Source of the DNA: Phycisphaerales bacterium
GTDB lineage: Bacteria; Planctomycetota; Phycisphaerae; Phycisphaerales; UBA1924
Length of the DNA: 64,000 nt
NCBI GenBank assembly: GCA_029260345.1
Contig: JAJDDK010000004.1
Location: forward strand, 372,001-436,000
Direction: 5' to 3'
Positions 21,932 to 51,369 of the stretch are shown here, piece after piece. The translations under genes were made by a program, and so were the position numbers. Within the stretch, counting starts at the first letter, position 1, and each line of letters opens with the position of its first letter. The notes beneath the pieces are model-generated. The model ran no database searches. It was not told the origin of the DNA and saw nothing but the letters and a program-made list of their open reading frames with translations.

Positions 21932-23155
21932 ATGGCCTTCGGGATGATGAATTCGGGCACAGCGCCCATTGCGATCGAGTTTGGAGTCGGATCGCTCAAG
22001 GCGCTGCAACTGACGCCGGGCGATCCCCCGACGCTGGTCGCCGCTGCCTGCATCGAAACGCCCGAGGACGTTCGCCGCGATCACGACGCCCGGCTCGCCT
22101 ACCAATGCGAAAACGTCGGCAAGCTGCTCAAGAACTCCGGGTTCAAGGGCAAGAAGGTCATTTGCTCGATCCCCGCGCCTTTCACCCTTGTGCAGCACAT
22201 TCAGGTGCAGAAGAGCGAAGGGCTGAACATGGCCGACCAGGTCATGAGCCACCTGCAATCGCAATTGCACTGCGACCCGACGCGCGTCGTCGTGCGTCAT
22301 GTGGAAGTCGGCGAAGTCAGCCGCGCCGGTGGCTCGCGCACGGAAGTCATTTGCTTTGCCGTGGCCCGCGACATGGTCATGCGCATCATGAACGCGCTGC
22401 GCGCCTCAAAGTTTGAAGTCATTGGGCTGCACTCCGAACACATCGCCCTCGCTCGCGCGTTTGATCATGTGACCAAGCGCGCCTCCGACAGCGAACTCAC
22501 CAGCATGTACCTCGACCTCGGCGTCGGGACCACGAAAATCGTTCTTGCGCATGGTCGCGACATCGTGTTCGCCAAGACGATTCACGTCGCCGGGGTGGAC
22601 CTCGATACGTCCATCGCGCGTGAATTGAAGTGCGACCTCGCCGAAGCGCGCGCTCGTCGACTGGCGATGGGGCGCGACATGCCCGCGCCGACCAAACCGA
22701 AACAGGCCCCGGCCACGATCGGTTCCATGAGCAAGTCAGCCGCCGACGAGGCGCCCGCCGAAGGTGAATCCGTCGCTGTGATTGAAGATCGCCGCGTCGG
22801 CGCCACCGCCGTCGGCATGACCGCGCCGGTGCGCACGGACGATGACGCGATTGAAAAGCCGCTCGAAGGGCCAACCAGCGCGCTGGCGGCGGAGGTGTCC
22901 ATGTGCCTGCGCTATCACGAACGATTGTTCCCCGACCATCCGGTTGGGCGCGCCGTGTTCGTCGGTGGCGAAGCCCGCGACCTGGCCTTGTGTCAGCGCA
23001 TCGCCAAGCTGCTGCGCGTGCCAGCGCAAATCGCCGACCCGCTCACGTGCGTGGAGAAGACCGGAAAAGAACCCATGCGCCACATTGATCTTGGCGCCCC
23101 TCAGCCCGGCTGGACGGTGCCGTTCGGCCTGAGTTTCTCGCCGCGCAACCTGTGA
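21932..23155 (+). CDS. pilM: Type IV pilus assembly actin-like ATPase PilM
   Basis: 407 residues. Actin-fold features: IAIEFGVGSLKALQL (phosphate 1), MYLDLGVGTTKIVLA (phosphate 2) and GRAVFVGGEARDLALCQRIA (adenosine motif). A low-complexity stretch (about 255-300) interrupts the second half. PilM binds the cytoplasmic tail of PilN and links the inner-membrane platform to the pilus motor. The ATG at 21932 (MAFGMMNSG) is the best of several close starts; two other ATGs follow within 15 bases. It is the first gene of a five-gene operon. Confidence 0.88.
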   Translation: MAFGMMNSGTAPIAIEFGVGSLKALQLTPGDPPTLVAAACIETPEDVRRDHDARLAYQCENVGKLLKNSGFKGKKVICSIPAPFTLVQHIQVQKSEGLNMADQVMSHLQSQLHCDPTRVVVRHVEVGEVSRAGGSRTEVICFAVARDMVMRIMNALRASKFEVIGLHSEHIALARAFDHVTKRASDSELTSMYLDLGVGTTKIVLAHGRDIVFAKTIHVAGVDLDTSIARELKCDLAEARARRLAMGRDMPAPTKPKQAPATIGSMSKSAADEAPAEGESVAVIEDRRVGATAVGMTAPVRTDDDAIEKPLEGPTSALAAEVSMCLRYHERLFPDHPVGRAVFVGGEARDLALCQRIAKLLRVPAQIADPLTCVEKTGKEPMRHIDLGAPQPGWTVPFGLSFSPRNL

Positions 23156-23199
23156 ACCGGAAAGGCGGCCTCTGTGGCGCCGCCCGGGAGAGATGAGTC

Positions 23200-24003
23200 A
23201 TGTTCGATCGTGCCAAACAACCCGACTCCGTCAACACAAGCTTCCTTCCGGAAGACTATGTGGTGCGCAAGGCGGAGAACCGCACCAACCTCGTCTGCCT
23301 GACGCTCTTCTCGATCGTCATCTTCGGCGTGGTCGCGGCGTTCTTCGTGACCAATCGCCAGTGGTCCACTGTGAAGGACCAGCAGGAAAGCATCAACGTG
23401 CGCTACACGAAAGCAGCGCAGCAGATCGAGCAGCTCAAGACGCTGGAGTCGCAGAAGGACCAGATGCTCTCCAAGGCAGAGCTCACCACGGCGCTCATCG
23501 AGAAAGCCCCGCGCTCCTTGCTCATGGCGGATCTGATCAATCGCATGCCCGAGCGTTTGGCGCTGCTGGAGTTTGATCTCACCAGCAAGCGATTGGACTC
23601 CGGCGCTTCACGCCGCAACGCACCGCCGACCAAGCCCAAGAGCCTCGCGGGCCGCAATCGCAATTCGCGCAAGACGGCGGAAGCAGAAGAAGCCGAAGTC
23701 GCGCGTCCGACGCCGCCGAGGTACCAGACCAATCTCGTGCTCATTGGCGTGGCGCCGAGCCACGAGGACGTGTCGTCGTATCTCGCACAATTGCAGCAGT
23801 CCGAGCTTCTGGTCAATGTTGATTTGAAGTTCAGTGAGTTCACGATTCTCGACAATCGTCAACTCATCAAGTTCCGGATCGAAGCGACGCTCAACAACTC
23901 AGCTGATGCACGACGCATCGAGCCGTTGACGGCGTCGCGCGCGGGTCTCTTCGGTTCCGGCGAAGCCGTCGCCGATGCCGACGACCACGAGGAGGAGAAC
24001 TGA
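23200..24003 (+). CDS. pilN: PilN-like inner-membrane alignment protein
   Basis: 267 residues. A cytoplasmic N-terminus with FLPEDYVVRKAENRTNL, where PilN carries its PilM-binding segment (typically NLLPxR), is followed by one membrane helix (about 31-51) and a coiled coil (52-105). A charged low-complexity linker (about 128-165) leads to a ferredoxin-like C-terminal domain (TNLVLIGVAP ... FRIEATL). GGGAGAGA-type ribosome site before the ATG; 44 bp from pilM. With PilO it forms the periplasmic coupling ring. Position between pilM and pilO makes the call firm although sequence similarity in this family is weak. Confidence 0.8.
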   Translation: MFDRAKQPDSVNTSFLPEDYVVRKAENRTNLVCLTLFSIVIFGVVAAFFVTNRQWSTVKDQQESINVRYTKAAQQIEQLKTLESQKDQMLSKAELTTALIEKAPRSLLMADLINRMPERLALLEFDLTSKRLDSGASRRNAPPTKPKSLAGRNRNSRKTAEAEEAEVARPTPPRYQTNLVLIGVAPSHEDVSSYLAQLQQSELLVNVDLKFSEFTILDNRQLIKFRIEATLNNSADARRIEPLTASRAGLFGSGEAVADADDHEEEN

Positions 24004-24004
24004 C

Positions 24005-24550
24005 ATGCGTTTCGGACTCCGAGAAGTCATTTTCCTTTTCGTGCTCCTCGCGGTGCCGACCGCGTCGTTCTGGTTCGTCTTTCGACCCCAGAACGATGAG
24101 ATCGAGCAGGCGCGTCAGGAGATCGCCCACAAAGAAGAGATGTTGCGCAAACTCTCTGAAGTGACCGAGCAAACCGAGGACCTCGCCGCGCTCAACACCG
24201 AGATCGGCAAGGCGATCGAACTCATCGAATCACGCCTACCAACCGCGAAGGAAGTGGACGTCGTTTTGACTCAGGTCGCGGAAATCGCCAAAGGGCGCAA
24301 GCTGAGCCTCGAGAAGGTCAAGTCGGACAAGCCCGTGACGGCGGCGGCGTACATGGAGCAGCCGCTGAACATGATCATCACCGGCGACTTCGAAGGTTTC
24401 TACAGCTTCTTGCTTGACCTCGAACAGCTTGAACGAATCACGCGCGTGCCGAACCTCAAGATCGAACGCTCGCGCGATCAGGACGGCGCCATGTCAGCGG
24501 AATTCACGCTCAGCATTTACTTCGAAGCGACGGACGGAGGCCAGTCATGA
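24005..24550 (+). CDS. pilO: PilO-like inner-membrane alignment protein
   Basis: 181 residues: a membrane helix at 8-27 (VIFLFVLLAVPTASFWFVF), a coiled coil (28-75), then a PilO-type ferredoxin fold with the characteristic FEGFYSFLLDLEQLERITRV stretch. It starts one base after the pilN stop codon. PilN-PilO heterodimers set the periplasmic scaffold of the pilus machine. Its stop overlaps the next start by 4 bp (ATGA). Confidence 0.85.
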   Translation: MRFGLREVIFLFVLLAVPTASFWFVFRPQNDEIEQARQEIAHKEEMLRKLSEVTEQTEDLAALNTEIGKAIELIESRLPTAKEVDVVLTQVAEIAKGRKLSLEKVKSDKPVTAAAYMEQPLNMIITGDFEGFYSFLLDLEQLERITRVPNLKIERSRDQDGAMSAEFTLSIYFEATDGGQS

Positions 24551-25227
24551 GTAGCGCCGATCCCCGCGAATCCAGCGGTGTTTTCCTGCCCACACTCGGC
24601 GCCGATGACTCGACGCCGGATCCCATGAACGAATCCGCCGAAAACTCCGGTGGTTTGATCGGCGTTGGCGCGGATCTTCCGACCGGCCAGTCGTCGCGTG
24701 CGCGCGTGTCCACCGGCACCCTGATTCTGTTGCTGGTGGTCGTCGTCGCCGGTGGCGTGCTGTACATCATGCGCCAGTTTGGTCTGGGCACGCGCCTTGA
24801 ATTAGTCGACGTCAAGATTGACTATCCGATCGATGGACCTCGCACTGACACCGAACAGCACGAGCGTGTGCTGGCGGCGCTGCGCGACAGCTCCGTCGCG
24901 GTGCAGGTGCCGCTGGAGGAAGTGAAGAAGAACCCCTTCCAGCTTGGCATGAAGAAAGATGAAGCCTCGCCCGAGCCGGCGTCGACGTCTCCGTATGACC
25001 GTGAAGCGGCCGAGCGCGCCCGCCGCCAGCAGTTGATTCGCAACACGTTCGAGTCACTCGAACTGAACAGTGTAGTTGGCGGCTCCATGCCGATTGCGCG
25101 CATCAGTGGCGAAAACGTGCGCGTCGGTGACCGCGTCAAGGACTTGTTCGTCGTGAGCTCCATTCGCGGCCGTTCGGTTGAGCTCGTCGCGGATGGCGAA
25201 GTGTACACCTTGACGATGAGCAACTGA
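24547..25227 (+). CDS. PilP/GspC-like periplasmic linker with membrane anchor
   Basis: 226 residues: about 55 cytoplasmic residues, one membrane helix (57-76), a linker, then a small beta domain (VVGGSMPIARISGENVRVGDRVKDL ... VELVADGEVYTLTM) that resembles the PilP/GspC homology region which docks the inner-membrane platform to a secretin. Unlike classical PilP it is not a lipoprotein but is anchored by a helix, as GspC is. It overlaps pilO by 4 bp and precedes pilB by 20 bp, so its place in the PilMNOP unit is clear. Confidence 0.65.
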   Translation: MSSADPRESSGVFLPTLGADDSTPDPMNESAENSGGLIGVGADLPTGQSSRARVSTGTLILLLVVVVAGGVLYIMRQFGLGTRLELVDVKIDYPIDGPRTDTEQHERVLAALRDSSVAVQVPLEEVKKNPFQLGMKKDEASPEPASTSPYDREAAERARRQQLIRNTFESLELNSVVGGSMPIARISGENVRVGDRVKDLFVVSSIRGRSVELVADGEVYTLTMSN

Positions 25228-25247
25228 GCCCATCCGCGGAGCGAACC

Positions 25248-27182
25248 ATGGGCAAGTACGACCTCGACGAACTGCTGTCTGAACTGGGCGTTTCTGAATC
25301 GACACCCGCGGCGCCGACGCCTGCGTCAACTCCGGAACCGGCGCCGGCGCCCATGCCGACGAGCGCCGAGTCAACTGAGGCGCAAGCGCCAGTCGCGGGC
25401 GCGCCAAAGCTCGGCGGTGAAGCGTTTCGATCAATCTACACGCCCGACGATGACGACACCGCCACGCGCGGTTCGACCGACATCGGCGAACTGCTGATCC
25501 AGCGCGGCGCCGTCACGGCGCAACAGCTCACGCTCGGTCAAACCGTGCTCAAGCAGTCGCCGGGGCATCGCCTCGTTGATGTGCTCCTGGATCAGGATGA
25601 CGTAAATCGCAACGCCGTGCAGACCATCGTCGCAGAGCACGCCGGACTGCCTTTTGAACGACTCAATCGTGACGACATCGACGCCGCAGTCGAAGGCAAG
25701 TTGCTTCAGCGGCTCACTATCCCGTTCGCCAAACAGCATGGCGTGCTTCCGCTGCGCATTGAAGGCGATCGTGTCGTGATCGGCGCCGTGCGCCCGGATG
25801 ACGTGTTCCTGCTGGATGACGTGCGCCGGCGCGTCGGCATGGCGGCGCTCACCGTGGTTGTGGTGTCGCCGGATGATGTCAACGCCGTGCTTGAACACTT
25901 CGGCGGCGGCGCCGTCGGCGATGACGTCGATATTGACGACATTCTTGGCGACATCGATGAAGACGACGTGCAGGTGCACGATCACTCCATCGATGAGGTC
26001 GATCTTGAGAAGCAGGCCGGTGAATCGCCGGTCATTCGCTATGTGAACTACATCCTTCAGACCGCCGCGAAGGAAGGCGCCAGCGATATCCACATTGAGC
26101 CGGGCGAGAAAAAGCTCAAAGTGCGCTTTCGTGTTGACGGCGTGATGTTTGAAGCCATGCAGCCGCCCAAGGCCATGGCCGCGGCCATCACGTCGCGTCT
26201 GAAGATCATGGGCAACCTGGATATTTCCGAGCGCCGCCTGCCGCAGGATGGCCGCATCCGCGCGACGATCCAGAGCCGGCGTCTCGACTTGCGACTCTCG
26301 ACCTTGCCGACGCCCAACGGCGAGAAGTGTGTGCTCCGTATCCTTGATACACGCAGCATTCACGTAGATCTTCAGGATCTGGGATTCGATGAGCGAACGC
26401 TGTCGATCTGGCAGCGTCAGATTGAAGAGCCGCACGGCATCATTCTGGTGACGGGTCCCACGGGTTCAGGTAAAACGACGACGCTGTACGCGTCGCTGCG
26501 CCAAATGGATAAGCAGCGGCTCAATATCTCCACGGTCGAAGACCCGATTGAATATCACCTTGATGGTGTGACACAAACGCAGATGCACGAAAAGATCGGG
26601 ATGACGTTTGCGCGTGCCCTCAAGGCGCTGCTGCGTCAGGATCCCGACGTCATCATGCTCGGCGAAATTCGTGACCACGAAACAGCGCACACGGCGGTGC
26701 AGGCGGCGCTGACGGGCCACTTGGTGCTATCGACGTTGCACACGAACGATGCGCCGTCGTCCATCACGCGACTGGTGAACATCGGGCTTGAGCCGTTCCT
26801 GGTTGGCGCCGCGGTGAATGCGGTGCTGGCGCAGCGACTGGTGCGGCGCATCTGCGAACACTGCAAAGAGCAGGACAAGCCGACGGAAGAGATGGCGGAG
26901 TTCCTGGAAATGAACGGCCTCGCCGCGGAATCCATGTTCAAGGGCACTGGCTGTGATCGGTGTCGCAACACCGGATACTCGGGCCGCGTCGGCATTTATG
27001 AAATGCTGGTGACGGACGATCAGTTGCGCGACGTGATTGCACGCAATCCAAACGTCTCCGAGTTTCGACGCATGTGCATCGAGCGCGGCATGACTTCACT
27101 GCGGCAGGATGGGCTTTCCAAGGCGGCGCAGGGACGCACGACCGTGCAGGAAGTGCTGCGCGTCACCGAATCCAACGCGTAA
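25248..27182 (+). CDS. pilB: PilB/GspE-family assembly ATPase
   Basis: 644 residues. The order is: short N-terminal motif (KYDLDELLSELG), Pro/Ala-rich linker, MshEN-like domain (about 80-225), a very acidic spacer (about 226-255), then the secretion ATPase core with Walker A TGPTGSGKTTT (about 403), Asp box, Walker B LRQDPDVIMLGEIRD, His box TGHLVLSTLHTND, and the zinc-binding CEHC ... CDRC pair. It powers pilin extraction and extension. It closes the pilM-pilB operon and converges on the gspC-like gene, whose stop is 2 bp away. A second, shorter GspE-type ATPase is encoded at 35863-37539. Confidence 0.92.
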   Translation: MGKYDLDELLSELGVSESTPAAPTPASTPEPAPAPMPTSAESTEAQAPVAGAPKLGGEAFRSIYTPDDDDTATRGSTDIGELLIQRGAVTAQQLTLGQTVLKQSPGHRLVDVLLDQDDVNRNAVQTIVAEHAGLPFERLNRDDIDAAVEGKLLQRLTIPFAKQHGVLPLRIEGDRVVIGAVRPDDVFLLDDVRRRVGMAALTVVVVSPDDVNAVLEHFGGGAVGDDVDIDDILGDIDEDDVQVHDHSIDEVDLEKQAGESPVIRYVNYILQTAAKEGASDIHIEPGEKKLKVRFRVDGVMFEAMQPPKAMAAAITSRLKIMGNLDISERRLPQDGRIRATIQSRRLDLRLSTLPTPNGEKCVLRILDTRSIHVDLQDLGFDERTLSIWQRQIEEPHGIILVTGPTGSGKTTTLYASLRQMDKQRLNISTVEDPIEYHLDGVTQTQMHEKIGMTFARALKALLRQDPDVIMLGEIRDHETAHTAVQAALTGHLVLSTLHTNDAPSSITRLVNIGLEPFLVGAAVNAVLAQRLVRRICEHCKEQDKPTEEMAEFLEMNGLAAESMFKGTGCDRCRNTGYSGRVGIYEMLVTDDQLRDVIARNPNVSEFRRMCIERGMTSLRQDGLSKAAQGRTTVQEVLRVTESNA

Positions 27183-27184: not shown

Positions 27185-28246
27185 TCAGGATGGCGGCTTT
27201 GAGCGATCGGGGCGGAATTGTTTCGCGCGCCCGCCGCCCCCGGTTTCGCCCGGTCCGCTGTTCGTTGACATCATCTTGAGAAGTTCCGCGAGGCCATCCG
27301 GCGCCGCGGGAATGGCTTCCGGCGCTGCGTCTTCAGTTGCGGCTGCAACGACAGGCGCGTCTTCTTGCGCCGCCAGCGCGAGCAGTTCTTCAATTTCAGC
27401 AGGACTGACCCCGGCTTCGGTCAGTTCGCGGCGCAACTGCTCAGGTGTCATTGACATGACGATGACGCTTGGTTTCAACACCGGAATGGCGGACCCATTG
27501 GCTTGCGTCGTGACTTGCGCAGCCTCTGCGGCGAGTGTGTACATCGCGAGTTGCACATTCAGGTCAGCACGCGAGAGGATCACGCGCTTGCCGATATCGT
27601 CGATCGCGAGAACGGCCCATTCTTCTTCGCCAAAGGTTTCGCCAACGCGCCGAGGCTTGGCGCCGTTCTTGTTTTGATCTTTCACATTGCCGATCAGCGC
27701 CACCGGGCCTGACTTTGTGCGGTACACGCCACGCAAGCGCAGGTCTTTGAGATCCTTCTGAATTGCGACGGGCGGTGATTCAGTGATCGGGATGGCGTCG
27801 AAGGGCGTCAACGAGGTTGCGGCGCCGGGCTTCGCATTCGCGGCGGCCAGATTTGCTGCGACAGTCGCGGGATCGTCTTCTGAGCTTGCTGTGTCCTCGG
27901 GATCGGTTTCCGAACTCGTGCCCGGTCGCTGCGCCACCGCCTGGCGCCACGGTTCACGATCCGGGGCGAAAATGTTGCCGGCGCCAGCGACATCCGCGAG
28001 TAATGACTCACGATCGGCGAGCGACACCAGCGGCGCCGCATTCCGCGGAATGCGCGTCACGGCCGTGGATTCGTCGAGCTTTGGTGACGGGAGCGGTCGC
28101 AGCATGGCCCATGAGGCGACGGCGACGCCGAACAGCAGCGCTGCGGCGCCAGCGCGCATGGCCCATGTGGATGCATCGGCGCCGGTCACGCCGGCGCGCC
28201 GCAACCGGGCGGCGGGCAAAGTGGAATTGATTGATTCACGTTGCAC
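27185..28246 (-). CDS. gspC: GspC-like T2SS linker protein
   Basis: 353 residues from a GTG start at 28246, which has AGGGGG about 9 nt upstream; an ATG at 28300 lies deeper in the preceding gene and lacks such a site. A single membrane helix (30-48) is followed by an acidic, low-complexity periplasmic linker and a small beta domain (LKDLRLRGVYRTKSGPVALIGN ... VILSRADL) resembling the GspC homology region that binds GspD. The C-terminal part has MTPEQLRRELTEAGVSPAEIEELL, a helical hairpin, then disorder. Last gene of the T2SS operon; GspC usually comes first. The call rests on topology, context and the HR-like domain. Confidence 0.6.
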   Translation of the reverse strand: MQRESINSTLPAARLRRAGVTGADASTWAMRAGAAALLFGVAVASWAMLRPLPSPKLDESTAVTRIPRNAAPLVSLADRESLLADVAGAGNIFAPDREPWRQAVAQRPGTSSETDPEDTASSEDDPATVAANLAAANAKPGAATSLTPFDAIPITESPPVAIQKDLKDLRLRGVYRTKSGPVALIGNVKDQNKNGAKPRRVGETFGEEEWAVLAIDDIGKRVILSRADLNVQLAMYTLAAEAAQVTTQANGSAIPVLKPSVIVMSMTPEQLRRELTEAGVSPAEIEELLALAAQEDAPVVAAATEDAAPEAIPAAPDGLAELLKMMSTNSGPGETGGGGRAKQFRPDRSKPPS

Positions 28247-28835
28247 TTTCGGCGCCCCCTGTGGTGATGAGCGCGAGCGCTTCGAGGTCGATATCCACAT
28301 CGAGTTTCGTCACGGGTGTGCGCCTCGGGCCGATCACTTGCACGCGCGACACATGGCACCACGCATCGGGCATGTTCTCAAGTCGATCCACCATGGCGAA
28401 CAGCTCTTCGGTGGATTCCACCGCGATTGTGATTTGAAGGCCGATCACACGCACCGGTTGGTTTTCGACGGGTGTACGCACACTCGGCGCACTCGTGGCG
28501 ACCAGTGTGACGCCAAGATCATCGACAATAGAGTTGATCCGGCGCGTGAGCTGCGCGTTGGCGAGCTCCGCCGTCGGCGCCGCGATGAGGCGCGATCGCG
28601 CGGTTTGCCACGCTTCGATCGCATCCTGCTGGGCGCGCTCCCAGTCGTCGGCGGCGTTGATGAACTGCCGCATTTCCGCAACGAGCGTTGCCTGCTGTGC
28701 ATACTGAACACGGGTGGACGTTGTCGCGCTGTCGATGGCCGTGTCGTCCGCGCTTAAGCGATCGAGCACAACCAGCCCGCCGACGATGGCGACGAGCGCG
28801 ACGAGGATAGTGGTTCGTTTGCGTTCGGCGGTCAT
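28236..28835 (-). CDS. gspM: GspM/PilO-like T2SS inner-membrane protein
   Basis: 199 residues: one N-terminal membrane helix (8-25), a helical segment with coiled-coil features (about 45-90), and a ferredoxin-like C-terminal domain (RVIGLQITIAVESTEELFAMVDRLENM). The topology is that of GspM/PilO. Its start overlaps gspL by 4 bp and its end overlaps the gspC-like gene by 11 bp. In T2SS, GspM stabilises GspL in the inner-membrane platform. Confidence 0.75.
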   Translation of the reverse strand: MTAERKRTTILVALVAIVGGLVVLDRLSADDTAIDSATTSTRVQYAQQATLVAEMRQFINAADDWERAQQDAIEAWQTARSRLIAAPTAELANAQLTRRINSIVDDLGVTLVATSAPSVRTPVENQPVRVIGLQITIAVESTEELFAMVDRLENMPDAWCHVSRVQVIGPRRTPVTKLDVDIDLEALALITTGGAESAT

Positions 28836-30067
28836 TGTGTCCCTCCCGCCGCGGTGCGCTCGGCGCGCATTTCGAAGATGGACCAGCCCGCTTCGGGGCT
28901 TGGCATGAGCGGACCGGTGCGCCGTGCGGATGACAGAATCGGGCTGTCTTCGAGTCGTTGCAGCACCGCGCCGGCGTCGTCCGCTTCGCCGCTGATGGTC
29001 ACGCCGCGCGCGTCAACGAGCATGCGATACAGGAACCCTTCGCTGGAAAGGGCGGCTTGCGCTTCGGCCATCACCGGCATGGCGGGTCGCCAGCGGGAGA
29101 TTGGTTCACGCACACCTTCGTTCAACAAGGAGGCAAGGCGTTCCGTGTTGTTGCGCACGGAGCGTACGCGCTGGTACTCATCGGTGAGTGCCATTTGCTC
29201 GGCGCGAAGATTCGCAAGGCCGGTTTTGAGCCTCGCATCGAAAATCATGGGGGCGCCGATCAGTAATCCGGCGGCAAGCAGCGCGGCGGCGGCCGGCGCC
29301 AGCCATTCGGCGCGGCGGGTTGCGACAGCGCCGCTCATCGGCGCAAAGGCATGCGGCGCAACCAGTGGCGCCACGCCGCCCGCGACGGCGACGTCAACAC
29401 CGGAAACTGTGTTTGCAGTTCGCGCACTGGATTGCTTCGGCAGCGTCACGGTGATGGCGTCATTCACTGAAGAATCAACAGCGTCGCCAATCGAAACCGG
29501 CAGGCCGTAACGCAATGAATGGCGCACCGACTCAACCTCATCAATCGGCTCAATGACGGTCGCATGCACATGCTCTTGGAGTCCAAGCCCAAGCATCGCC
29601 ATGTGCGGGGAAAGCACCGCGCCCGCGTCGATCCCCGTCGCATCCTCAATCGCATGCAGCCACGGTTCAGCGACCTTTCGACGAATGGCAACAAGCCGGC
29701 CTGCGGCTGCTTGCTGTTCATCGTCGTAGATATTGAGCAGGCCGACCATGGCGTCGTCGCTGGTCATCGGGAGCAGGCGATCGATGGATTGCACCAATTC
29801 GTCGCGCGCACTCGCCCATTGTTTCGTCGTGAGAGCGATCGGGCGCACGGCGCACCAGGCGCTGGGCACGGTGAGCGTGAGACGTTTCACGCCGCTCGCC
29901 AGTGGCCGCAACGCGCTGCGCCGTTTGTCTGGCGTAAGCGACAGAAATCGTTCGATTGATGTGGAATCCAGCACACGGGCGCCGACGGGTCCGAGGCGCA
30001 GGCGGGCGGCATGCAGGTCGTCACCGACGATGCAGCAGGACAGGATGGTGCGGGGCGGAATCAACAT
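28832..30067 (-). CDS. gspL: GspL-like T2SS protein (actin-like plus PilN-like domains)
   Basis: 411 residues. A degenerate actin-like cytoplasmic domain (about 1-245) precedes one membrane helix (255-275) and a coiled coil plus ferredoxin-like periplasmic domain (GFLYRMLVDARGVTISGEADDAGAV). This is the PilM+PilN fusion layout that defines GspL, which ties the GspE ATPase to the membrane platform. The phosphate motifs of a true actin ATPase are weak (SCCIVGDDLHAARLRL), as in GspL. It lies between gspK and gspM, where the family is normally found. Confidence 0.82.
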   Translation of the reverse strand: MLIPPRTILSCCIVGDDLHAARLRLGPVGARVLDSTSIERFLSLTPDKRRSALRPLASGVKRLTLTVPSAWCAVRPIALTTKQWASARDELVQSIDRLLPMTSDDAMVGLLNIYDDEQQAAAGRLVAIRRKVAEPWLHAIEDATGIDAGAVLSPHMAMLGLGLQEHVHATVIEPIDEVESVRHSLRYGLPVSIGDAVDSSVNDAITVTLPKQSSARTANTVSGVDVAVAGGVAPLVAPHAFAPMSGAVATRRAEWLAPAAAALLAAGLLIGAPMIFDARLKTGLANLRAEQMALTDEYQRVRSVRNNTERLASLLNEGVREPISRWRPAMPVMAEAQAALSSEGFLYRMLVDARGVTISGEADDAGAVLQRLEDSPILSSARRTGPLMPSPEAGWSIFEMRAERTAAGGTQ

Positions 30068-30092: not shown

Positions 30093-31172
30093 TCAGTTTC
30101 GCGGAATCATGCGAATTCCCAGGATCTGCACGCCGTGATTGTCGTCGATGGAGGCGTCCACACGGTACGCGGGGCCTTCGCCGACGGGCTCAAGCCGCAG
30201 CATGATGAGGGAGCCGGGTTTGAATCGGAGGACTTCCTCTGCGTCGCTCGCCAAAGCGCCCAGCGCTTCATCGAGCGTTTCCTCCGTCAGCCCCCCACTG
30301 TCGCGCAGCGCGAGGATGCGCTGGGCGGCTTGCTCGCTCATGTCAGGGGCGCTGAGCAGCACTGCTCGCGATGCGGTGTGCACGTGAATCTTGCCATCAC
30401 CGACCAGCGTGAGATCGGATTGAATCTCATCGAGCACATCGCGTGACATGGAAGGCAGGAACAGCAGTTCTTCGATGGTTTGCAGTTGACCGTTGCGCGG
30501 CGTGATGTTGTGGCGCACGTACGTTTCGCGCTCGGCGCCGCGCGTGCGCGGGAGGTTGTCTTCGTCGCGCCAGTCGAGCAGTTCATGTGCGATGGACGAC
30601 GCCCGGAGCGTATCGAGGCCAACCGCGCGGAAATACCGCACCAGCTGATCCTCTTCCGCAGTGTTCAGATTGATGCCGCCGGTCGAATCAGACAACGTCA
30701 CGAGGAACTCGCGGTTATTCAGTCGGATGCGCATCACATTGCGCGGCAAGCCACGATCACGCAGGGCCGTCAATGGGCCGCCCCGTTTGATGATGGTTGA
30801 GCCGCGCTGCGAGACGCTTCCTGAACCGTCCTCGTCTTGGGGTTGATTGCGCAGCAAGCCGCGAACGAGTTCGCGCATCTCTGGCGGCATTTCGGGGAGT
30901 TCTGATTCATCGAGATCCGCTGCGGCGCCGCTGGAGGACGAACTGCCGCCACCGATGACGTCCGTCTCCTGTTTGGCGTCGGCCGTGAGGCTGGCGAGCA
31001 CGATGGTGGCGGCGCTCAAGGCGTCACGCTCGGCCGAGGCGTGCGCGCGCATGGTGGACGCTTCCACCGTGGCTGAGCGCACGGCGACCGCGCCCTGTAT
31101 TGCGAGGGCGAAGGTGGCGCTGGCGACCACGAGCACAATCAGGAGCGCGAAGGCGCGGCGACGAACAGCCAT
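30093..31172 (-). CDS. gspK: GspK minor pseudopilin
   Basis: 359 residues. A type III leader MAVRRRA and hydrophobic helix FALLIVLVVASATFALAIQ open the protein. The body has LSDSTGGINLNTAEEDQLVRYF, LLDWRDEDNLPRTRGAER and a second helix-hairpin-helix region (ASRAVLLSAPDMSEQAAQRILALRD), all typical of GspK. As in the family, there is no Glu at position +5. The residue before the predicted cleavage site is Ala rather than Gly. It caps the pseudopilus tip with GspI and GspJ. The start overlaps the end of gspJ by 34 bp. Confidence 0.9.
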   Translation of the reverse strand: MAVRRRAFALLIVLVVASATFALAIQGAVAVRSATVEASTMRAHASAERDALSAATIVLASLTADAKQETDVIGGGSSSSSGAAADLDESELPEMPPEMRELVRGLLRNQPQDEDGSGSVSQRGSTIIKRGGPLTALRDRGLPRNVMRIRLNNREFLVTLSDSTGGINLNTAEEDQLVRYFRAVGLDTLRASSIAHELLDWRDEDNLPRTRGAERETYVRHNITPRNGQLQTIEELLFLPSMSRDVLDEIQSDLTLVGDGKIHVHTASRAVLLSAPDMSEQAAQRILALRDSGGLTEETLDEALGALASDAEEVLRFKPGSLIMLRLEPVGEGPAYRVDASIDDNHGVQILGIRMIPRN

Positions 31173-44181: not shown

Positions 44182-44523
44182 TCACACGCGGCGGGTGGTC
44201 GCGGCGCCGCCCCGATCCAGGGCGCGCGGCGAGCGGTACGCATCAATAAGAGAGCCAAGCGCGAGGCGGATCAGGTCGCTCTTGCGGCCGGCGCCAAGTT
44301 TCGAATGAATTCGGGACAAGTGCGTTCGCAGGGTGGCGACGGAGACGCAGAGGCGGTCAGCGATTTCTTCGTTGCTGCCGCCCTCGCAGACGGAAAAGAG
44401 GACGTCGAGTTCTCGGTCGGTCAATAAAGGAAGGCGATCGGCGAGCCAGGCGCGCTCCGATCCGTCCAGCCGAGTGGCGGAACCTCCCGCCATCGGGTTG
44501 GTTGACGAACCGGGTTGAACCAT
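44182..44523 (-). CDS. LuxR-type helix-turn-helix regulator without receiver domain
   Basis: 113 residues from the ATG at 44523, with GAGAGG 4 nt before it. The only recognisable domain is a LuxR/FixJ-type HTH (33-90): LLTDRELDVLFSVCEGGSNEEIADRL, then VSVATLRTHLSRIHSKLGAGRKSDL. There is no phospho-receiver or ligand domain, so activity is set by abundance or an unknown partner. It is divergent from pilT (276 bp apart) and directly upstream of the giant exoprotein gene, so it may control either set. Confidence 0.85.
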   Translation of the reverse strand: MVQPGSSTNPMAGGSATRLDGSERAWLADRLPLLTDRELDVLFSVCEGGSNEEIADRLCVSVATLRTHLSRIHSKLGAGRKSDLIRLALGSLIDAYRSPRALDRGGAATTRRV

Positions 44524-44799
44524 TGACCTCTCCCCCTCTTGGGCTGATTTCGGGGTGAATCGCGCCCAAACCACTGTCTCCGCAACGCTTGTGCAAATCC
44601 GGCGCCAGAACGGCGCGGCCCGCACAACCCGCGCGGTCGGAATGATTCACGCTTCGCCAGAGTCATCAGCCGCGCCAAACGTGCCGATTGCTCTGCAGCG
44701 AGCCGGACCGTCCCCGGTCTGGTCGAGGGATTGGAGTATTTCGGCGTTGACCCGCTCGGGGACGGGTGGGCTCGCTGGATTTTCAGGAGCGAGGCCGAG

Positions 44800-45855
44800 A
44801 TGAAGATCGATCAGATCCTCCACACCGCGCACGAAGCTGATGCGTCTGACATTCACATCGTTGCGGGCCATCCGCCCGTGATGCGCGTTCATACGGTGAT
44901 GACGCCGATGGACTTTCCGGTCCTCACGCCGGAAACGACGCGAGCGATGCTGGAAGAGATTGCGTCGCCGCCGGCGGTGAAGCAGTTCGACGATTTGTTC
45001 GACTCGGACTTTTCCTACGCGGTTGATGATCTCGGTCGTTACCGCGTGAACGCGCACATGCAGCGCGGCTGCGTGGCGCTGACGATGCGAGCGATCAAGA
45101 GCAAAGTTCCGCCGCTGGCGGCGTTGAATCTTCCCGACGTGATTGCGAGGCTCACGTATTTGCCGCGCGGGCTGGTGCTCGTGACGGGTGATACGGGTTC
45201 GGGTAAGTCCACGACGCTCGCCGCGATGATCCAGTCGATGAACGAGCGCTACCGCAAGCACATCATCACGCTGGAAGACCCGGTCGAATATGCGTTTGAA
45301 TCGAACCGGTGTCTGGTGGAGCAGCGTGAACTCGGCGCTGATATGCCGAGCTTTTCGTCAGGACTGAAGCACGCGTTGCGTCAGGACCCTGACATCATCC
45401 TCGTCGGTGAAATGCGAGACCTTGAAACGACTGCGCTGGCCATCACGGCGGCGGAAACCGGTCACCTGGTCTTGAGCACGTTGCATACGGTCAACGCGTC
45501 ACAGACAGTGGAACGAATCATTGATATGTATCCGGCGTCGCAGCAGAATCAGATTCGCTCGATGCTGGCCAACACGCTGCAGGCCGTGGTGTCGCAGACG
45601 TTGTTCTCACGCATTGATGAGCCCGGCATGTGCCCGGCGGTTGAGATTCTGCTGTGTACGCCCGCCGTGCGCAACATCATCCGCGAAGCTCGCGCGTTTG
45701 AAATTCCGAACGTGATTGAGACGAACCGCGCCATCGGCATGACGACGCTCGACTCTGCGATTGCCGAGCTCTACTTCAACGGCATGATCAGTCGTGAGGA
45801 TGCGATCGCTCAGGCGGCGTTCCCTGACAAGATCGAACGACAACTGGCGGCGTAA
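44800..45855 (+). CDS. pilT: Type IV pilus retraction ATPase PilT
   Basis: 351 residues. PilT-specific features: DASDIHIVAGHPPVMRV near the N-terminus, Walker A TGDTGSGKSTT (about 129-139), ITLEDPVEY, Walker B LRQDPDIILVGEMRD, His box TGHLVLSTLHT, and the retraction motif variant AVRNIIREAR. It lacks the CxxC zinc site of PilB/GspE. AGGAG lies about 10 nt before the ATG. It pulls pilin subunits back into the membrane for twitching or DNA uptake. Its presence shows that the pilM-pilB set is a retractile pilus and not merely a second T2SS. Confidence 0.95.
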   Translation: MKIDQILHTAHEADASDIHIVAGHPPVMRVHTVMTPMDFPVLTPETTRAMLEEIASPPAVKQFDDLFDSDFSYAVDDLGRYRVNAHMQRGCVALTMRAIKSKVPPLAALNLPDVIARLTYLPRGLVLVTGDTGSGKSTTLAAMIQSMNERYRKHIITLEDPVEYAFESNRCLVEQRELGADMPSFSSGLKHALRQDPDIILVGEMRDLETTALAITAAETGHLVLSTLHTVNASQTVERIIDMYPASQQNQIRSMLANTLQAVVSQTLFSRIDEPGMCPAVEILLCTPAVRNIIREARAFEIPNVIETNRAIGMTTLDSAIAELYFNGMISREDAIAQAAFPDKIERQLAA

Positions 45856-45941: not shown

Positions 45942-47168
45942 ATGCCGAATTACCGCTATCAGGTGAAGGGAAACGACGGACAGATTTCCGTCGGCATGAT
46001 TGCGGCGGACAACGCGACGGCCGCGGCCAACGCGTTGCGCGCGCAGGGCAATCACGTGCTCGATCTGGGCGCTGTCGCGGCTGACGCGGCGGCGGGCGGT
46101 TTGGCGGATCGGTTGCGCCAGCTCAACGCCGGCAAGCCGAACATGAAGCACGTGCTGGATTTCACGACCCAGCTTGCGGTCATGATTCGCGCCGGCATTA
46201 ACCTGCGCATGGCGCTTGAGGGCATTGCGGATCAGAGCACGCACGTTGGTTTCAAGCGCATCATTCAAGGCATGAAAGCGGACGTGGAGTCCGGCAAGCA
46301 GTTTTCAGAAGCAATCGCACGGCATCCGAAGTTGTTCGGGCCGCTATATGTGAACATGGTGCGAGCCGCGGAAGTGTCGGGTTCGTTCGGCAAGATGCTG
46401 GATCGCATCGCCATGAACCTCGCGCAGCAGATCGAGACCAAGAAAATGGTCATCGGCGCGATGATTTATCCCGGCGTGATCGGCACGATGGCGATCGGCG
46501 TGACGGTCTTCCTGCTGACGTTCGTGCTGCCGAAGTTCGGCGCGGTGTTCGAGGGCAAGGAAGATGCGCTGCCGTGGGCGACGACGTTCCTGATGGGATT
46601 GTCCGCGTTCATGGTGGCGAACTGGCCGCTGCTGGTCGGTTTCCTGTTCGCGTCGGCGATTGGTTTCTTCTTCTTCCTGAAGACGGAGATGGGCGCCTTC
46701 TGGTGGGACCGCATGAAACTGCGGGCGCCGGTCTTTCGCGTGATGTTCCGTTCGCTGTACATCAGCCGCGGCTTGCAGACGATGGGCGAGCTGATCAACG
46801 CGGGTGTGCCGATGCTCGACACGATTGCGATCACCGGCGACATCAGCGGCAACCGTTTGTACAAGCGGTTGTGGGGCACGGTGTTCGCGGCGGTGAAAGA
46901 AGGCAAGAAGATCGCGATGCCGCTGACGAAGAGCACGCTCTTCCCCAAAGCGGTGGTGCAGATGATCTCCGCGGGTGAGGAGTCCGGTAAGCTCGGTGAA
47001 GTTCTTGACGAGATATCGGTCTTCTACGCGAAGCAGTTGCGCGACAACATCAAGGCGGTCACCTCGATGATTGAACCGATCATGATCATTGTGATGGGTT
47101 CGATCGTTGGATTCATCGCCATGGCGATCATCCTGCCTATCTTCAAGATGAGTCAGATCGTCAGCTAA
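45942..47168 (+). CDS. pilC: Type IV pilus inner-membrane platform protein PilC
   Basis: 408 residues with two T2SSF domains and three membrane helices. Motifs: HVLDFTTQLAVMIRAGINLRMALEGI, HPKLFGPLYVNMVRAAEVSGSFGKML, ISRGLQTMGELINAGVPMLDTI and VVQMISAGEESGKLGEVLDEI. It bridges PilB/PilT to pilin assembly. The ATG at 45942 (MPNYRYQVKGNDG) matches the family N-terminus; a GTG 18 bases earlier is possible. It follows pilT by 86 bp. Confidence 0.93.
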   Translation: MPNYRYQVKGNDGQISVGMIAADNATAAANALRAQGNHVLDLGAVAADAAAGGLADRLRQLNAGKPNMKHVLDFTTQLAVMIRAGINLRMALEGIADQSTHVGFKRIIQGMKADVESGKQFSEAIARHPKLFGPLYVNMVRAAEVSGSFGKMLDRIAMNLAQQIETKKMVIGAMIYPGVIGTMAIGVTVFLLTFVLPKFGAVFEGKEDALPWATTFLMGLSAFMVANWPLLVGFLFASAIGFFFFLKTEMGAFWWDRMKLRAPVFRVMFRSLYISRGLQTMGELINAGVPMLDTIAITGDISGNRLYKRLWGTVFAAVKEGKKIAMPLTKSTLFPKAVVQMISAGEESGKLGEVLDEISVFYAKQLRDNIKAVTSMIEPIMIIVMGSIVGFIAMAIILPIFKMSQIVS

Positions 47169-47288: not shown

Positions 47289-48008
47289 ATGCGAATTCGT
47301 TCAACACATCCCGCTCGAGCCGGCGCGGGCTTCACACTCATCGAGACGGCCTTGGCGACCGTCATCATTGCGGTGGGGGTGCTTGCGCTGATGGAATCGC
47401 ACCAGACTTTCCTCCGCACGAATGCGTGGTCCACGCACACCTCAACCGCGACCTTGCTCGCCAATGAAGTGCGCGAAATGACACGGCATTACCCGCGGCA
47501 CGACAGTTTCTCCGGCGGCATCTACTTTGAGGATCAGGAAAATCACACGGGCTTCCGAGGCTGGGGACCGGAGCTCAATGAAGTCTTGCCGGAACTGTTT
47601 GACGATCTTGATGATTTTGATGGCGTCGTGTTTGGCGACGCCGCGGCGGCTGACTTGCCGGGTCCGATCGCGACAGTGGGCGGCGTGCTGATGCGCTTCC
47701 CCGGTCCGATCAACGCGTTCAGTGAAGTGATTCCTGAGACGTTGTGGTCGGGCGTGACCGCCGTGGATGGCGACGACGAGACATTGCCGCTGCAGGGCTG
47801 GACGCAGTACGTGCAGGTGGACAAGGTCGATCCGCTCGACTTCACGACGACGATCGCGGACGACTATTTCGAAGCCGCGTTCGGCGGAACGCCGGAGCGG
47901 CGCGTGGACAATTTCCCGGTGCGCGTCACGGTGTGGACACTGTTCCAGGGAAACTATGACACTGAAGCGCGCATCATTGCGCGGCATACGTGGGTCGCTC
48001 CGGAGTGA
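47289..48008 (+). CDS. Prepilin-like minor pilin (PilV/GspI type)
   Basis: 239 residues. The leader RAGAG precedes FTLIETALATVIIAVGVLALME, with Gly -1 and Glu +5, a canonical prepilin-peptidase site. The remaining part is acidic and beta-rich with no further domain. The ATG at 47289 has AGGAG 8 nt upstream; an in-frame ATG at 47172 lies before two hairpins and would bury the leader. It heads a three-gene minor-pilin operon; minor pilins prime pilus assembly. Confidence 0.82.
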   Translation: MRIRSTHPARAGAGFTLIETALATVIIAVGVLALMESHQTFLRTNAWSTHTSTATLLANEVREMTRHYPRHDSFSGGIYFEDQENHTGFRGWGPELNEVLPELFDDLDDFDGVVFGDAAAADLPGPIATVGGVLMRFPGPINAFSEVIPETLWSGVTAVDGDDETLPLQGWTQYVQVDKVDPLDFTTTIADDYFEAAFGGTPERRVDNFPVRVTVWTLFQGNYDTEARIIARHTWVAPE

Positions 48009-48013
48009 CCGCA

Positions 48014-50731
48014 ATGCGACGACTCAACGGCTGGATCATTCGCAACCGCAGCGCGTGCTGGAGCGAGGAACGAGGATTCGACGCCATGCGACGAACCACG
48101 ACAACCCCACGACGCCGACGATCGTTGCGCACCCGGCGCGGCGTAATCAGCGTCTTGGCCATGATGTTCATGGTGCTGTTCGGCTCACTTGCCGCGGCCA
48201 TGGCGATTGTGAGCAAAGGCAACCTGCGCACGGCGCAAACGCACTTGCGCGTCTCGGGCGCGCTGGGCGCCGTGGACGCCGGTCTGGAGATGGCGTCCGG
48301 ACGATTGCGAATCGCGTCCGGCCAGATGCGCGTCTGGAAAGGCGAGATCGACGCGACCTACGCGATGAAGCTCTGGAACGGGACGTACTCCGAAGCGGAC
48401 GGCCCGGTGGTCGATGCGGAAGGCGATGCGCTTTCAACGGGCGTGCGCGACTTGATCGCGGCCCTGCACCCGGAAGAAGACGACGCCGGAACCGTGAGCA
48501 TTGAGACGGAGTTCACGGCGCAGGATTCGTGGCTCGTCACCGAGCCGATCGTGCTTGAGAGCGTGAACGGACAGGTCGCTACCGCGTTTCAGATTACGTA
48601 TGTGCCGGTCGAGTTGAACGACATCAACCGGCTTGGCGTGCGCGTGGTGGTCACGGGCTTCTCGTGGGACTTTGCGTCCGAACAGTGGACGCGTCGCACA
48701 GCGCAGCAGCTCTATGTGCTTGGCAAGAGTCCGCGGCAGGCGGTGCTCGGGCCGAGCAAGATCATGATCGGCAAGAACGTGCAGGTGAACGGTCCGCTTG
48801 GCGCCCGTTTCGTCGGCGTGGAGCATGTTGAGGGTCACCCGCTCGTCGTGAACAGTGACTTTTTCGGCTTGGACGAAGTCCTCGACGACAAGCTTCAGGA
48901 CTTTTACGACGCCGTGCTGGCGACGGATCAGGACGGCGACAACCGACTGCGCCTGCTTCATGTCATTGAAGACGACATGGTCGGAACGCTCGCGACGACG
49001 TACTACGACGACGGCTCCGGCGGCAGTGAGAATGGCATGATCACCGACTTCACGGGTGATGGCATGCTCGATGAATTTGACATCTTTCTGAAGCACTTTG
49101 ACGACAACGCCGACGGTCGCGTGGCGCTTTCGGATTTGCTTCGCGCTGGCACAGCGCACGAAGGCCTGACCGCGGAATTCGACAATATTGATGAGGATCT
49201 GGCGCTGCTGATCGACGGCGCGCGGCCGGATCGCAACGGCGATGGGAAGGTCGATGCGCGTGACACCGCGCTTGGTTACCGCGACGGCGTGATGGATCGG
49301 CGCGATCGGTACGCGAAACTCCGCGGCCAGGCGCTGTTCAAAGCGCAGCGCGACGATTGGGAAGATCAGGAAGACGGTTTCGGTTCGCCGATCGGCGACT
49401 ATCAGCAGTTCATTCAAGGCGCGATCACGGCGGATGGTGAAGATCCGGTGATCTTCAACGCCAGTGATGAGATTCTCCCAAACATCAACGCGGACACGTT
49501 TGATGTGGCGCAAACTGATCTTGGCGCCGCAGCGGATGGCGCGCCGTTCGCCTCACAGGCAGGGCTGGCCTGGGTGTGGGACTCAGTGACGAACGGCGAC
49601 GGCGTCGTGACCGGCCAGACGCTGAATCCGGTGTTTCACAGCGGCGACGACGAGAGTGATTTCGACGTCATCGTGGAGCCGGCGCCACTCACGGCCCCGG
49701 CGCCGGTGGATTGGTACCAGCGCCCGGTGATTCGCAACAAAGTATTCAAGAACGTGGTGATTCCGTCAGGGACGAACGCGCTCTTTGAGAATTGCACGTT
49801 CGTTGGTGTGACGCGCGTGCAGACGCACATCGACAACACGCATGTGTCGTGGCAGTTCTATGGCGTGCAGAATGCGGACGGGTCGCTGGCGTATCCGCCA
49901 TTGCCGGCGGAGAGCGAAGCGCAGCTCGACAATGACTACTTCCCGGATGACGGCAGCATCATCGTGCCCGACGGGTTTGATGTGCCGCGACTGGAAGTGT
50001 CCGGCGTGCCGTACGTCAACACGAAGCCGCTGTCGAACAACATTCGCTTTCACGACTGCACGTTCATCGGCTCCGTCGTGGCGGACAAGCCGAACAACTA
50101 CACGCATGTGCGCAACAAGCTGCAGTTCACCGGCGCGACGAAGTTCGCGACCGAGCACCCCGATGAGCCGAGCAACCCGGCGCTGAATCCTGATTCCTCA
50201 GATCTCGCGGCGATCGAGAAGAGCTCCATGATGCTCCCCCACTATTCGGTGGACATCGGCGAGAACAACGCCAGCCCGGATCAGGACGTGAATTTGCATG
50301 GGCTGATTATCGCCGGCGTGCTCGACGTGCGCGGCAACACCGAAATCAACGGCGCGCTGCTGCTGACGTTTGAACCGACGCTGGCGGACCCTGCGCTGCA
50401 GCACTTTGGCGAGCCCGTCGGCAACCCGGCGGATTTCAACATCACGCTCGGGTACTTCGGCCCCTTGCAGGGCGATGCGGAAGGCCTGGCGCCGTTTGAA
50501 TACAACGGCGACATCATCGTCGGCTTTGACCTCGACGGCGACGGTCGTGTGGACACGGTCAGCCCCGGCGACGGCGGCACGCCCGTGCCATTCAACGGCT
50601 ACGGCCGCGTCGTGCTGAACTTTAATCCGGACCTTGTGATGCCGGATGGTCTCATCGCGCCGCTCAACATCGAAGCGATTCCGTTGTCCTACCACGAAGG
50701 ACGCATCATCGCGGAAGCGGGTGAAGAATGA
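48014..50731 (+). CDS. Large PilX-like pilus protein with EF-hand/dockerin-like loops
   Basis: 905 residues. A basic leader ending RTRRG precedes VISVLAMMFMVLFGSLAAAMAIV (44-66), like PilX/GspK minor pilins without Glu +5. The N-terminal helix region continues LRTAQTHLRVSGALGAVDAGLEMA. In the middle lie three calcium-loop motifs: DFTGDGMLDEFDIF and DDNADGRVALSDLL (nt ~49048-49140) and DRNGDGKVDARDTA (nt ~49228-49269). The second half has strand-loop repeats (VFKNVVIPSGTNALFENCTF) suggestive of a beta-helix. The ATG at 48014 has GGAG 9 nt upstream; an ATG at 48086 is an alternative. It may be a calcium-dependent tip adhesin like PilY1 in role, not in sequence. Confidence 0.7.
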   Translation: MRRLNGWIIRNRSACWSEERGFDAMRRTTTTPRRRRSLRTRRGVISVLAMMFMVLFGSLAAAMAIVSKGNLRTAQTHLRVSGALGAVDAGLEMASGRLRIASGQMRVWKGEIDATYAMKLWNGTYSEADGPVVDAEGDALSTGVRDLIAALHPEEDDAGTVSIETEFTAQDSWLVTEPIVLESVNGQVATAFQITYVPVELNDINRLGVRVVVTGFSWDFASEQWTRRTAQQLYVLGKSPRQAVLGPSKIMIGKNVQVNGPLGARFVGVEHVEGHPLVVNSDFFGLDEVLDDKLQDFYDAVLATDQDGDNRLRLLHVIEDDMVGTLATTYYDDGSGGSENGMITDFTGDGMLDEFDIFLKHFDDNADGRVALSDLLRAGTAHEGLTAEFDNIDEDLALLIDGARPDRNGDGKVDARDTALGYRDGVMDRRDRYAKLRGQALFKAQRDDWEDQEDGFGSPIGDYQQFIQGAITADGEDPVIFNASDEILPNINADTFDVAQTDLGAAADGAPFASQAGLAWVWDSVTNGDGVVTGQTLNPVFHSGDDESDFDVIVEPAPLTAPAPVDWYQRPVIRNKVFKNVVIPSGTNALFENCTFVGVTRVQTHIDNTHVSWQFYGVQNADGSLAYPPLPAESEAQLDNDYFPDDGSIIVPDGFDVPRLEVSGVPYVNTKPLSNNIRFHDCTFIGSVVADKPNNYTHVRNKLQFTGATKFATEHPDEPSNPALNPDSSDLAAIEKSSMMLPHYSVDIGENNASPDQDVNLHGLIIAGVLDVRGNTEINGALLLTFEPTLADPALQHFGEPVGNPADFNITLGYFGPLQGDAEGLAPFEYNGDIIVGFDLDGDGRVDTVSPGDGGTPVPFNGYGRVVLNFNPDLVMPDGLIAPLNIEAIPLSYHEGRIIAEAGEE

Positions 50732-51369
50732 TTCGCGCCACATCCATTCGACGAACAAGTCCGGCTCGGCGGCGCGGCTTCAGCATGATCGAAGTGCTGA
50801 TTGCGCTGACCATCAGCAGCACACTGCTCGCGGCGACGCTGGCGGCGCTGGATTCCTCGTTCAAGCAGTACAAGTCCACGACGGAGTCGGCGTCCACGCA
50901 CGTGGTGAGCCGCATCGTGATGCACCGGGTGCTGTCGATGCTGCGCACGGGCGTGGAGTTCGGCCCGTTCCCGGCGGATGTCTACAACACGAATCAGAAC
51001 CCGGTGGTGTCAGACTTCATCGAGTTCCTCAGCGAGCGCGATCTCGCGGCGGGGATGTCGCGCATCACGCGCATCGAATTGCGCCCCGGCGAAATCGAGA
51101 ACGGCCCCGGCGAACTGTGGTACGTCCTCATCGATGCGGATGCGGACGATCCGCTGATCATTGAAGAACGCCCGCTCATCCGCGGCGTGGTCGAAGTCTC
51201 CTTCACGCTGCACTACAACCGCCAGACCTTCGCGCTGGACCGGGCGACAGTGGACATGACGATCGAGCCCAATGATTCGCAGGACTTGCGTTTCGGAGCG
51301 ATCGCCGACCCCAGCGCCCCGCAGACAATCCGTCTGGTGGCATCGGCGGCGCCGCGACAGATGTTCTGA
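50728..51369 (+). CDS. Prepilin-like minor pilin (PilW/GspJ type)
   Basis: 213 residues. Leader SPARRRG, then FSMIEVLIALTISSTLLAATLAAL with Gly -1 and Glu +5. The rest resembles the PilW/GspJ group in size and beta content (IEFLSERDLAAGMSRITRIELRPG). It overlaps the large PilX-like gene by 4 bp (ATGA), so the two should be made together. It is the last gene of the minor-pilin operon and converges on a lipoprotein gene. Confidence 0.82.
   Translation: MIRATSIRRTSPARRRGFSMIEVLIALTISSTLLAATLAALDSSFKQYKSTTESASTHVVSRIVMHRVLSMLRTGVEFGPFPADVYNTNQNPVVSDFIEFLSERDLAAGMSRITRIELRPGEIENGPGELWYVLIDADADDPLIIEERPLIRGVVEVSFTLHYNRQTFALDRATVDMTIEPNDSQDLRFGAIADPSAPQTIRLVASAAPRQMF

Follow-up and report, generated by a model that had tools for sequence, protein, structure and literature searches.

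A type II secretion operon nested in a pilus locus, and a pilus motor probably exchanged behind a retained PilQ pore in Phycisphaerales

Gene content and conservation of the locus

The window, a stretch of 64,000 bp (bases 372,001-436,000 of contig C4 in a Phycisphaerales genome of 3.40 Mb in 8 contigs), harbors two blocks of pilus genes on the plus strand, pilMNOPB at 21.9-27.2 kb and PilT, PilC and pilin genes at 44.8-51.4 kb. Between the blocks, on the opposite strand, lie an 11-gene run of type II secretion system (T2SS) genes without a peptidase gene, two genes for exported-looking proteins and a regulator gene, and both parts of this layout agree with the initial annotation. The pilus genes of the window (PilM, N, O, P, B, T and C with the minor pilins) are referred to here as motor W. 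Pfam and NCBIfam matches support PilM, PilN, PilO and a PilB/GspE ATPase in the left block, GspD, F, E, G, K and M of the T2SS, and, in the right block, PilT and PilC together with one protein that begins with the N-terminal motif of pilins; the calls of PilP, GspC, GspL, GspH and GspJ are weaker. The genes are as follows:

21025..21738, plus: phosphorylase-family gene, usual left neighbour of pilM in most fetched regions
21932..23155, plus: pilM (PF11104 32.7 bits, over cut-off; TIGR01175 64 bits, below its cut-off)
23200..24003, plus: pilN (PF05137 29.8 bits)
24005..24550, plus: pilO (PF04350 68.1 bits)
24547..25227, plus: pilP, with a putative C-terminal HR-like secretin-docking domain (by position and hhalign to other PilPs)
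25248..27182, plus: pilB, extension ATPase with MshEN domain (PF00437 475 bits, PF05157 58 bits)
27185..28159, minus: putative gspC, HR-like domain (T2SSC in 2 of 7 alignment members; hhalign to W_PilP 91.7%)
28236..28835, minus: gspM (PF10741 26.5 bits)
28832..30067, minus: gspL (by position and size; no family match; conserved in relatives)
30093..31172, minus: gspK (PF21687 47.3 bits)
31139..31861, minus: gspJ (by position; pilin-like start by eye; no family match; conserved in relatives)
31900..32307, minus: gspI (N_methyl 22.8 bits on a longer frame)
32312..34588, minus: gspD, T2SS secretin (PF00263 146 bits, N0 domain 36 bits)
34649..35866, minus: gspF (PF00482 131.5 bits)
35863..37512, minus: gspE (PF00437 395 bits; tree)
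37536..37982, minus: gspG, major pseudopilin (PF08334 103 bits)
37979..38476, minus: gspH (N_methyl just under cut-off; position, size, pilin-like start, conservation)
38674..39453, minus: exported-looking protein with dockerin type I domain (PF00404 39.8 bits), candidate substrate
39588..43616, minus: 1342-aa acidic exported-looking protein, candidate substrate
44182..44625, minus: LuxR-type HTH regulator (type judged by eye; matched in 7 relatives)
44800..45855, plus: pilT, retraction ATPase (TIGR01420 441 bits, over its cut-off)
45942..47168, plus: pilC, platform (PF00482 192 bits)
47289..48008, plus: minor pilin (N_methyl below cut-off)
48161..50731, plus: large pilin-locus protein, no family match, found in both clades
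50785..51369, plus: minor pilin (N_methyl 30.6 bits on the longer frame 50728-51369)

PilM, PilN and PilO of the window each exceed their Pfam cut-off. GspD reaches 315 bits with TIGR02517, below its cut-off of 351, and W_PilB stays below cut-off with both the GspE (609 bits) and the PilB (600.5 bits) models of NCBIfam, while joining the other PilB (Q_PilB, see below) in the ATPase tree. Neither PilP nor GspC of the window has a family match over cut-off; a single E. coli GspC compared with three profiles gave no match, and nothing relevant emerged when the alignments of PilP and GspC were searched as profiles against the PDB. The name PilP rests on position and mutual similarity, because the Pfam PilP family is matched neither by W_PilP nor by its counterpart beside PilQ on contig C6 (Q_PilP, described below). 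T2SSB and T2SSC match instead, the former in 13 of the 16 members of the W_PilP alignment, with the window's own protein not among the matches listed. In hhalign comparisons, W_PilP reaches 97.7% with Q_PilP and 99.1% with the outgroup PilP, compared with the 91.7% to W_GspC.

Comparison with relatives (Phycisphaerales or Planctomycetota MAGs; family set of 163 genomes) revealed that the nesting is real and kept in part of the family. The PilB-T2SS junction is present in 10 genomes (in one of which, G165, GspL, GspM and GspC were undetected), the T2SS-PilT junction in 8 and both in 6, the window included. As 6 genomes share both junctions, an assembly artefact, which the initial annotation had allowed for, is ruled out. 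Among pilM regions fetched from relatives, PilMNOPB stand together in 20 of 20, with the T2SS beside PilB in 3 and absent there in 17; pilTC forms a separate locus without T2SS in all five clade-I regions (for clade I, see below). In G160, PilMNOPB is on one contig and the T2SS on another, each in a different gene neighbourhood; no T2SS was found within 11 kb beside PilB in G187, the nearest relative, and in G109 and G086 the first labelled genes next to the phosphorylase gene belong to the T2SS, with no pilus genes between. A GspD ortholog (E<=1e-60) occurs in 21 of 163 family genomes, of which 18 have a full Q-type PilB (the ATPase of the C6 locus), G262 a partial one, and G170 and G175 none. 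The nesting is a conserved local state of the genome group that keeps both pilus motors. G170 belongs to clade I and yielded no PilM of either type, yet on its contig C52 (L270) this T2SS is accompanied by its two neighbours, which may represent transfer, retention or contamination.

The T2SS probably exports these two operon neighbours, which are candidate substrates by co-conservation. The dockerin protein was matched in 15 relatives, and weakly in G086 and G109, and the 1342-aa protein, which has no Pfam or NCBIfam match, was matched beside the T2SS in 11 relatives.

Secretins, motors and trees in the window genome

The initial annotation counted one secretin, which holds for the locus (GspD only) and fails for the genome, where four were found; the genome-wide search that it proposed for a second secretin, pilA and pilD also returned a PilA-like pilin on contig C6 and one peptidase. 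The part-for-part duplication that it described is real and wider than claimed, with 13 T2SSE-family matches over cut-off and 12 T2SSF domains, corresponding to 6 platform proteins. Its suggestion of a shared prepilin peptidase is likely, given one A24 match in the genome, at C6:634 kb, with both domains (PF06750 and PF01478).

A single copy of PilQ is located at C6:726 kb, its best NCBIfam model being PilQ (203 bits, below cut-off), ahead of the GspD model (189). The initial annotation had counted a complete separate pilus locus as evidence against its own reading and, taken literally, this is what C6:717-736 kb contains, with pilins, PilMNOP, PilQ, PilB and PilC. In order of transcription, the locus begins with a HEAT-repeat protein (script label TPR9138), a PilA-like pilin, two small genes and a second pilin, continues with PilM, PilN, PilO, PilP, PilQ and a repeat protein (by eye), and ends with a histidine kinase, a response regulator (by eye), HD-GYP, STAS, PilB and PilC. 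The set beside PilQ is referred to as motor Q. An MshEN domain, which binds c-di-GMP, is present in the PilBs of both motors, while HD-GYP belongs to the Q locus and PilT adjoins W only; it is therefore plausible that W and Q are regulated differently.

Other loci of the genome carry related parts. A second T2SS-like set is split over C4:126-155 kb. Another filament locus (L032, C6:655-670 kb) encodes PilT, PilC, two PilB-like ATPases and some five large proteins that start like pilins (by eye), and neither PilMNO nor a secretin appeared in the 20 kb examined. At C6:22-27 kb (L037:8392-13118), a gene for a PilT-like ATPase precedes those for a divergent member of the T2SSE family and another long protein, an arrangement unlike the other loci. 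An 1115-aa secretin-domain protein (G000:C6:81852-85415, L004; also L038:10275-13622) stands beside STAS-like and kinase-like genes (by eye), and no pilus neighbours of it were seen in the window genome. All 24 family genomes compared for secretins have 4-10 of them, and in 15 of the 24, the window genome not being one of these, a secretin domain lies inside a frame of 3,500-4,800 codons (for example G184:C1:3459886-3460383, G003:C13:317863 and G030:C1:2542301), which may be a giant secretin or a fused gene.

Trees of the ATPases and platform proteins, which were quick trees with several long branches flagged, separated the T2SS from the pili. W_PilB and Q_PilB are sisters (98), and W_PilC joins Q_PilC (99), whereas GspE groups with the T2SS ATPases of G086 and G109 (100) and GspF with proteins of the same two genomes (88). 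Since GspE and GspF group with T2SS proteins, and PilB and PilC with pilus ones, the T2SS did not arise by copying of the neighbouring pilus; this candidate explanation was rejected, and the suggestion of the initial annotation that the T2SS was built from the pilus is not borne out. Moreover, the outgroup Q-type PilBs (partial sequences in this tree) fall with the Q-type PilBs of the family, which implies that the split between W and Q PilB predates the family.

The initial annotation also proposed that the pilus shares a secretin with the T2SS, that is, that the window pilus borrows the GspD of a T2SS built or inserted within its locus. This would agree with GspD being the sole secretin of the locus and with the adjoining of T2SS and pilus blocks in 10 and 8 genomes. 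Nevertheless, the W pilus occurs in most relatives in the absence of this T2SS (of 61 genomes, each from another genus, 54 have W_PilM, whereas the GspD ortholog is in 21 of 163), W_PilP compares better with PilP than with GspC, the ATPase and platform trees keep the two machines apart, and a PilQ stands with pilins elsewhere in the genome, all of which makes such borrowing very improbable. Secretin sharing is likely to be between the two pilus motors rather than between T2SS and pilus, and the secretin of the window pilus is most likely the C6 PilQ, not the nested GspD.

Pore and motors across the family

Of the 163 family genomes, 158 have PilQ, and none of the 112 good-quality ones lacks it; G187 and Planctomycetota isolate J020 have identical PilQ proteins. 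Q-type PilB was found in 21 of 163 at no less than 737 bits, plus G262 in part. Among 61 genomes of different genera, all with PilQ, 41 have W only, 13 both motors, 3 Q only (G086, G188 and G203) and 4 neither PilM (G153, G167, G170 and G200), where W only means W_PilM present and no Q-type PilB, and includes G175. The four genomes with PilQ and neither PilM imply that PilQ can persist without either motor.

The species tree was built from rpoB and rpoC of 30 to 32 family genomes (G174 and G192, with partial rpoB, were kept in a quick version and dropped in a careful one; for the count of T2SS changes on it, G086 was scored as T2SS-bearing and G203 was left out). It contains a clade I (100/100) of 9 W-only genomes and two with neither motor (G153 and G170). 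All family genomes of this tree outside clade I have a Q-type PilB except G175, which carries W and is placed among the Q-bearing genomes. These genomes, clade II, group with an SH-aLRT of 93 in the quick version of the species tree and are not resolved as a clade in the careful one; their PilQs receive 100 in the PilQ tree rooted on GspD and 97 in the midpoint-rooted PilQ tree. The W-only PilQs form one clade (94) under midpoint rooting, not under rooting on the distant GspD. As the PilQ tree mirrors the main groups of the rpoB-rpoC tree, a single PilQ lineage seems to have been passed down through all motor states.

A scan of named genomes with a Q-type PilM profile found 29 loci, a sample from which outgroup PilQ loci without PilM would be missed because the profile was of Q-type PilM. 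In 13 of the more distant loci (32-36% identity), PilQ falls outside the family, a position that rests on the midpoint-rooted PilQ tree and not on a genome tree. Outgroup loci that are long enough have the order pilin-PilM-N-O-P-PilQ, most of them also with HD-GYP and PilB. The pilin-to-PilQ distance is 2.8-3.7 kb in Q-type loci and 0.2-0.5 kb in 9 of the 10 clade-I loci with a labelled pilin, the frames overlapping in the remaining one; three further clade-I loci have no pilin label. None of the 13 clade-I PilQ loci has a Q-type PilM, PilN, PilO, PilP or HD-GYP match, and when these five proteins were compared by tblastn with the gap in nine clade-I loci, the best E value was 0.17. The interval from pilin to PilQ thus lacks PilM, PilN, PilO and the greater part of PilP in the ten examined loci without the Q motor. 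Among the loci compared, the Q-module kinase and STAS genes are confined to Q-type loci, and its response regulator has five weak matches outside Q-type loci, none at a clade-I PilQ locus.

Translation of the gap in nine clade-I loci revealed an open reading frame of 70-90 residues with one hydrophobic stretch and a common core (by eye). A profile of these nine ORFs, searched against 43,969 ORFs of 311 loci, gave 32 matches at E<=1, of which 16 are in clade-I PilQ loci (the nine seeds and seven others) and 16 at the N-termini of outgroup PilPs; two of the latter carry no PilP label, yet lie between PilO and PilQ. The ORF is thus present in 16 of 21 clade-I genomes (seven of the 12 non-seed genomes) and absent in 5 of 21. 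In hhalign it reaches 97.5% with the outgroup PilP, over the N-terminal part only, and it does not include the C-terminal domain of PilP; it is referred to here as a PilP stump. The profile did not match clade-II PilPs, hhalign to the sister-clade PilP gave 1.1%, and the member compared with Pfam had no match. An example is L154:8109-8372, with equivalents in 15 other genomes.

The outgroup gene order, the missing genes and the PilP stump together argue for a deletion that removed the Q motor and spared the pore, and we infer that Q is most likely ancestral and was lost around PilQ in clade I. The opposite course, a gain of the Q motor in clade II by insertion between pilin and PilQ, fits the change counts (2) as well as loss does, and other outgroup states may be hidden because the outgroup loci were found through Q-type PilM. 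It is nevertheless improbable given that the outgroup loci have the same gene order and that clade I holds the PilP stump.

If Q was deleted in clade I, the question arises of what drives PilQ there. W is the sole set with a PilM at E<=1e-8 in W-only genomes, apart from a weak further match in G177, and in G184 only 1.8 kb separates the pilin-PilQ block from W pilT-pilC, which follows it downstream on the same strand. The C-terminal domain of Neisseria PilP binds the N0 domain of PilQ, as described in PMC3441751. Likeness of this N0 domain to twelve outgroup PilQs (L305, on a long branch, was left out) is 0.695 in clade I vs 0.699 in both-motor genomes, while N1 is less conserved in clade I (0.385 vs 0.414). 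The sole PilM set, the closeness of W_PilP to PilP rather than GspC, the retained N0 domain and the linkage in G184 suggest that the W motor drives PilQ in W-only genomes.

Alternatively, there might be two separate pili, Q using PilQ, and W using another secretin (e.g. the 1115-aa protein at C6:83 kb) or none. Secretins of the 1115-aa class, assigned by score and frame length rather than by tree, do occur in 23 of 24 family genomes. However, the member in the window genome neighbours STAS-like and kinase-like genes rather than pilus genes (by eye), W-only genomes keep PilQ and pilins though the Q motor is gone, and G184 joins PilQ to W pilTC. Two separate pili therefore appear unlikely, though less so than the gain of Q in clade II.

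An exchange of motors and its relation to known systems

The reading preferred here, with a probability of about 0.7, is that the pilus pore and pilins were retained while the motor was exchanged, and that the window genome keeps both motors with one PilQ. What weighs most against it are the four genomes with PilQ and neither motor, and the manner in which the outgroup loci were detected and placed. In the ancestors, the Q motor would have been encoded beside the pilins and PilQ. One half of the family would then have lost it by deletion, leaving pilins, PilP stump and PilQ, with W alone driving the pore; in the other half, which includes the window genome, both motors would persist with one PilQ. 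The W motor of the window would be the inner-membrane part of a type IVa-like pilus that takes its pore and main pilins from the genes at C6:717-736 kb. W_PilP would dock on PilQ through its HR-like domain, both motors would use the same pore in the window genome, and the single prepilin peptidase would serve all systems, while the T2SS would work separately with its own GspC-GspD. More tentatively, W, with its retraction ATPase, and Q, with its signalling genes, may dock by turns on one PilQ and its pilins, the dual state having let the motors be exchanged, and the stump may have been kept by selection as a membrane microprotein with a continuing role at the pore; we hold this to be possible, with the odds somewhat against it.

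Read in this way, genomes with the old motor, with both and with the new one would form a natural series that shows how a membrane-spanning machine swaps half its parts while the other half stays. The account names a docking pair, two PilPs and one PilQ N0 domain, and brings to light a conserved small ORF in front of pilQ. It also indicates that shared parts should not be assumed for a T2SS merely because it lies within a pilus locus. Among the matches listed, titles and abstracts on planctomycete or Phycisphaerae pili, PilQ, filament evolution and shared secretins contained no such pilus motor exchange.

As in type IVa pili, the genes of which are usually spread over several loci according to PMC6668835, all core parts are encoded in the window genome, at several loci. 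Unlike the type IVa pilus, two inner-membrane motors are found for one PilQ and, in most relatives examined, the pore outlived its own motor. In another planctomycete, Planctopirus limnophila, three putative pilQ genes have been deleted (PMC11958385). The T2SS resembles other type II secretion systems in its 11 genes in one run, its own GspC-like protein and GspD, and its adjacent candidate substrates, and differs from them in having no peptidase gene in the run and in its position between two pilus blocks. Separate secretins for T2SS and type IV pilus are presented as the rule for E. coli in PMC2649431. A prepilin peptidase common to both systems is likewise described (PMC6668835), and the single peptidase for several systems here is expected and nothing new. 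The closest parallel is the type IV pilus of Thermus thermophilus, for which PMC13039148 reports one PilQ serving more than one filament, with one machinery and two pili. One PilQ would have more than one user in both cases; in Thermus, however, there is one machinery, whereas the single PilQ of the window genome seems to be shared by two sets of motor proteins.
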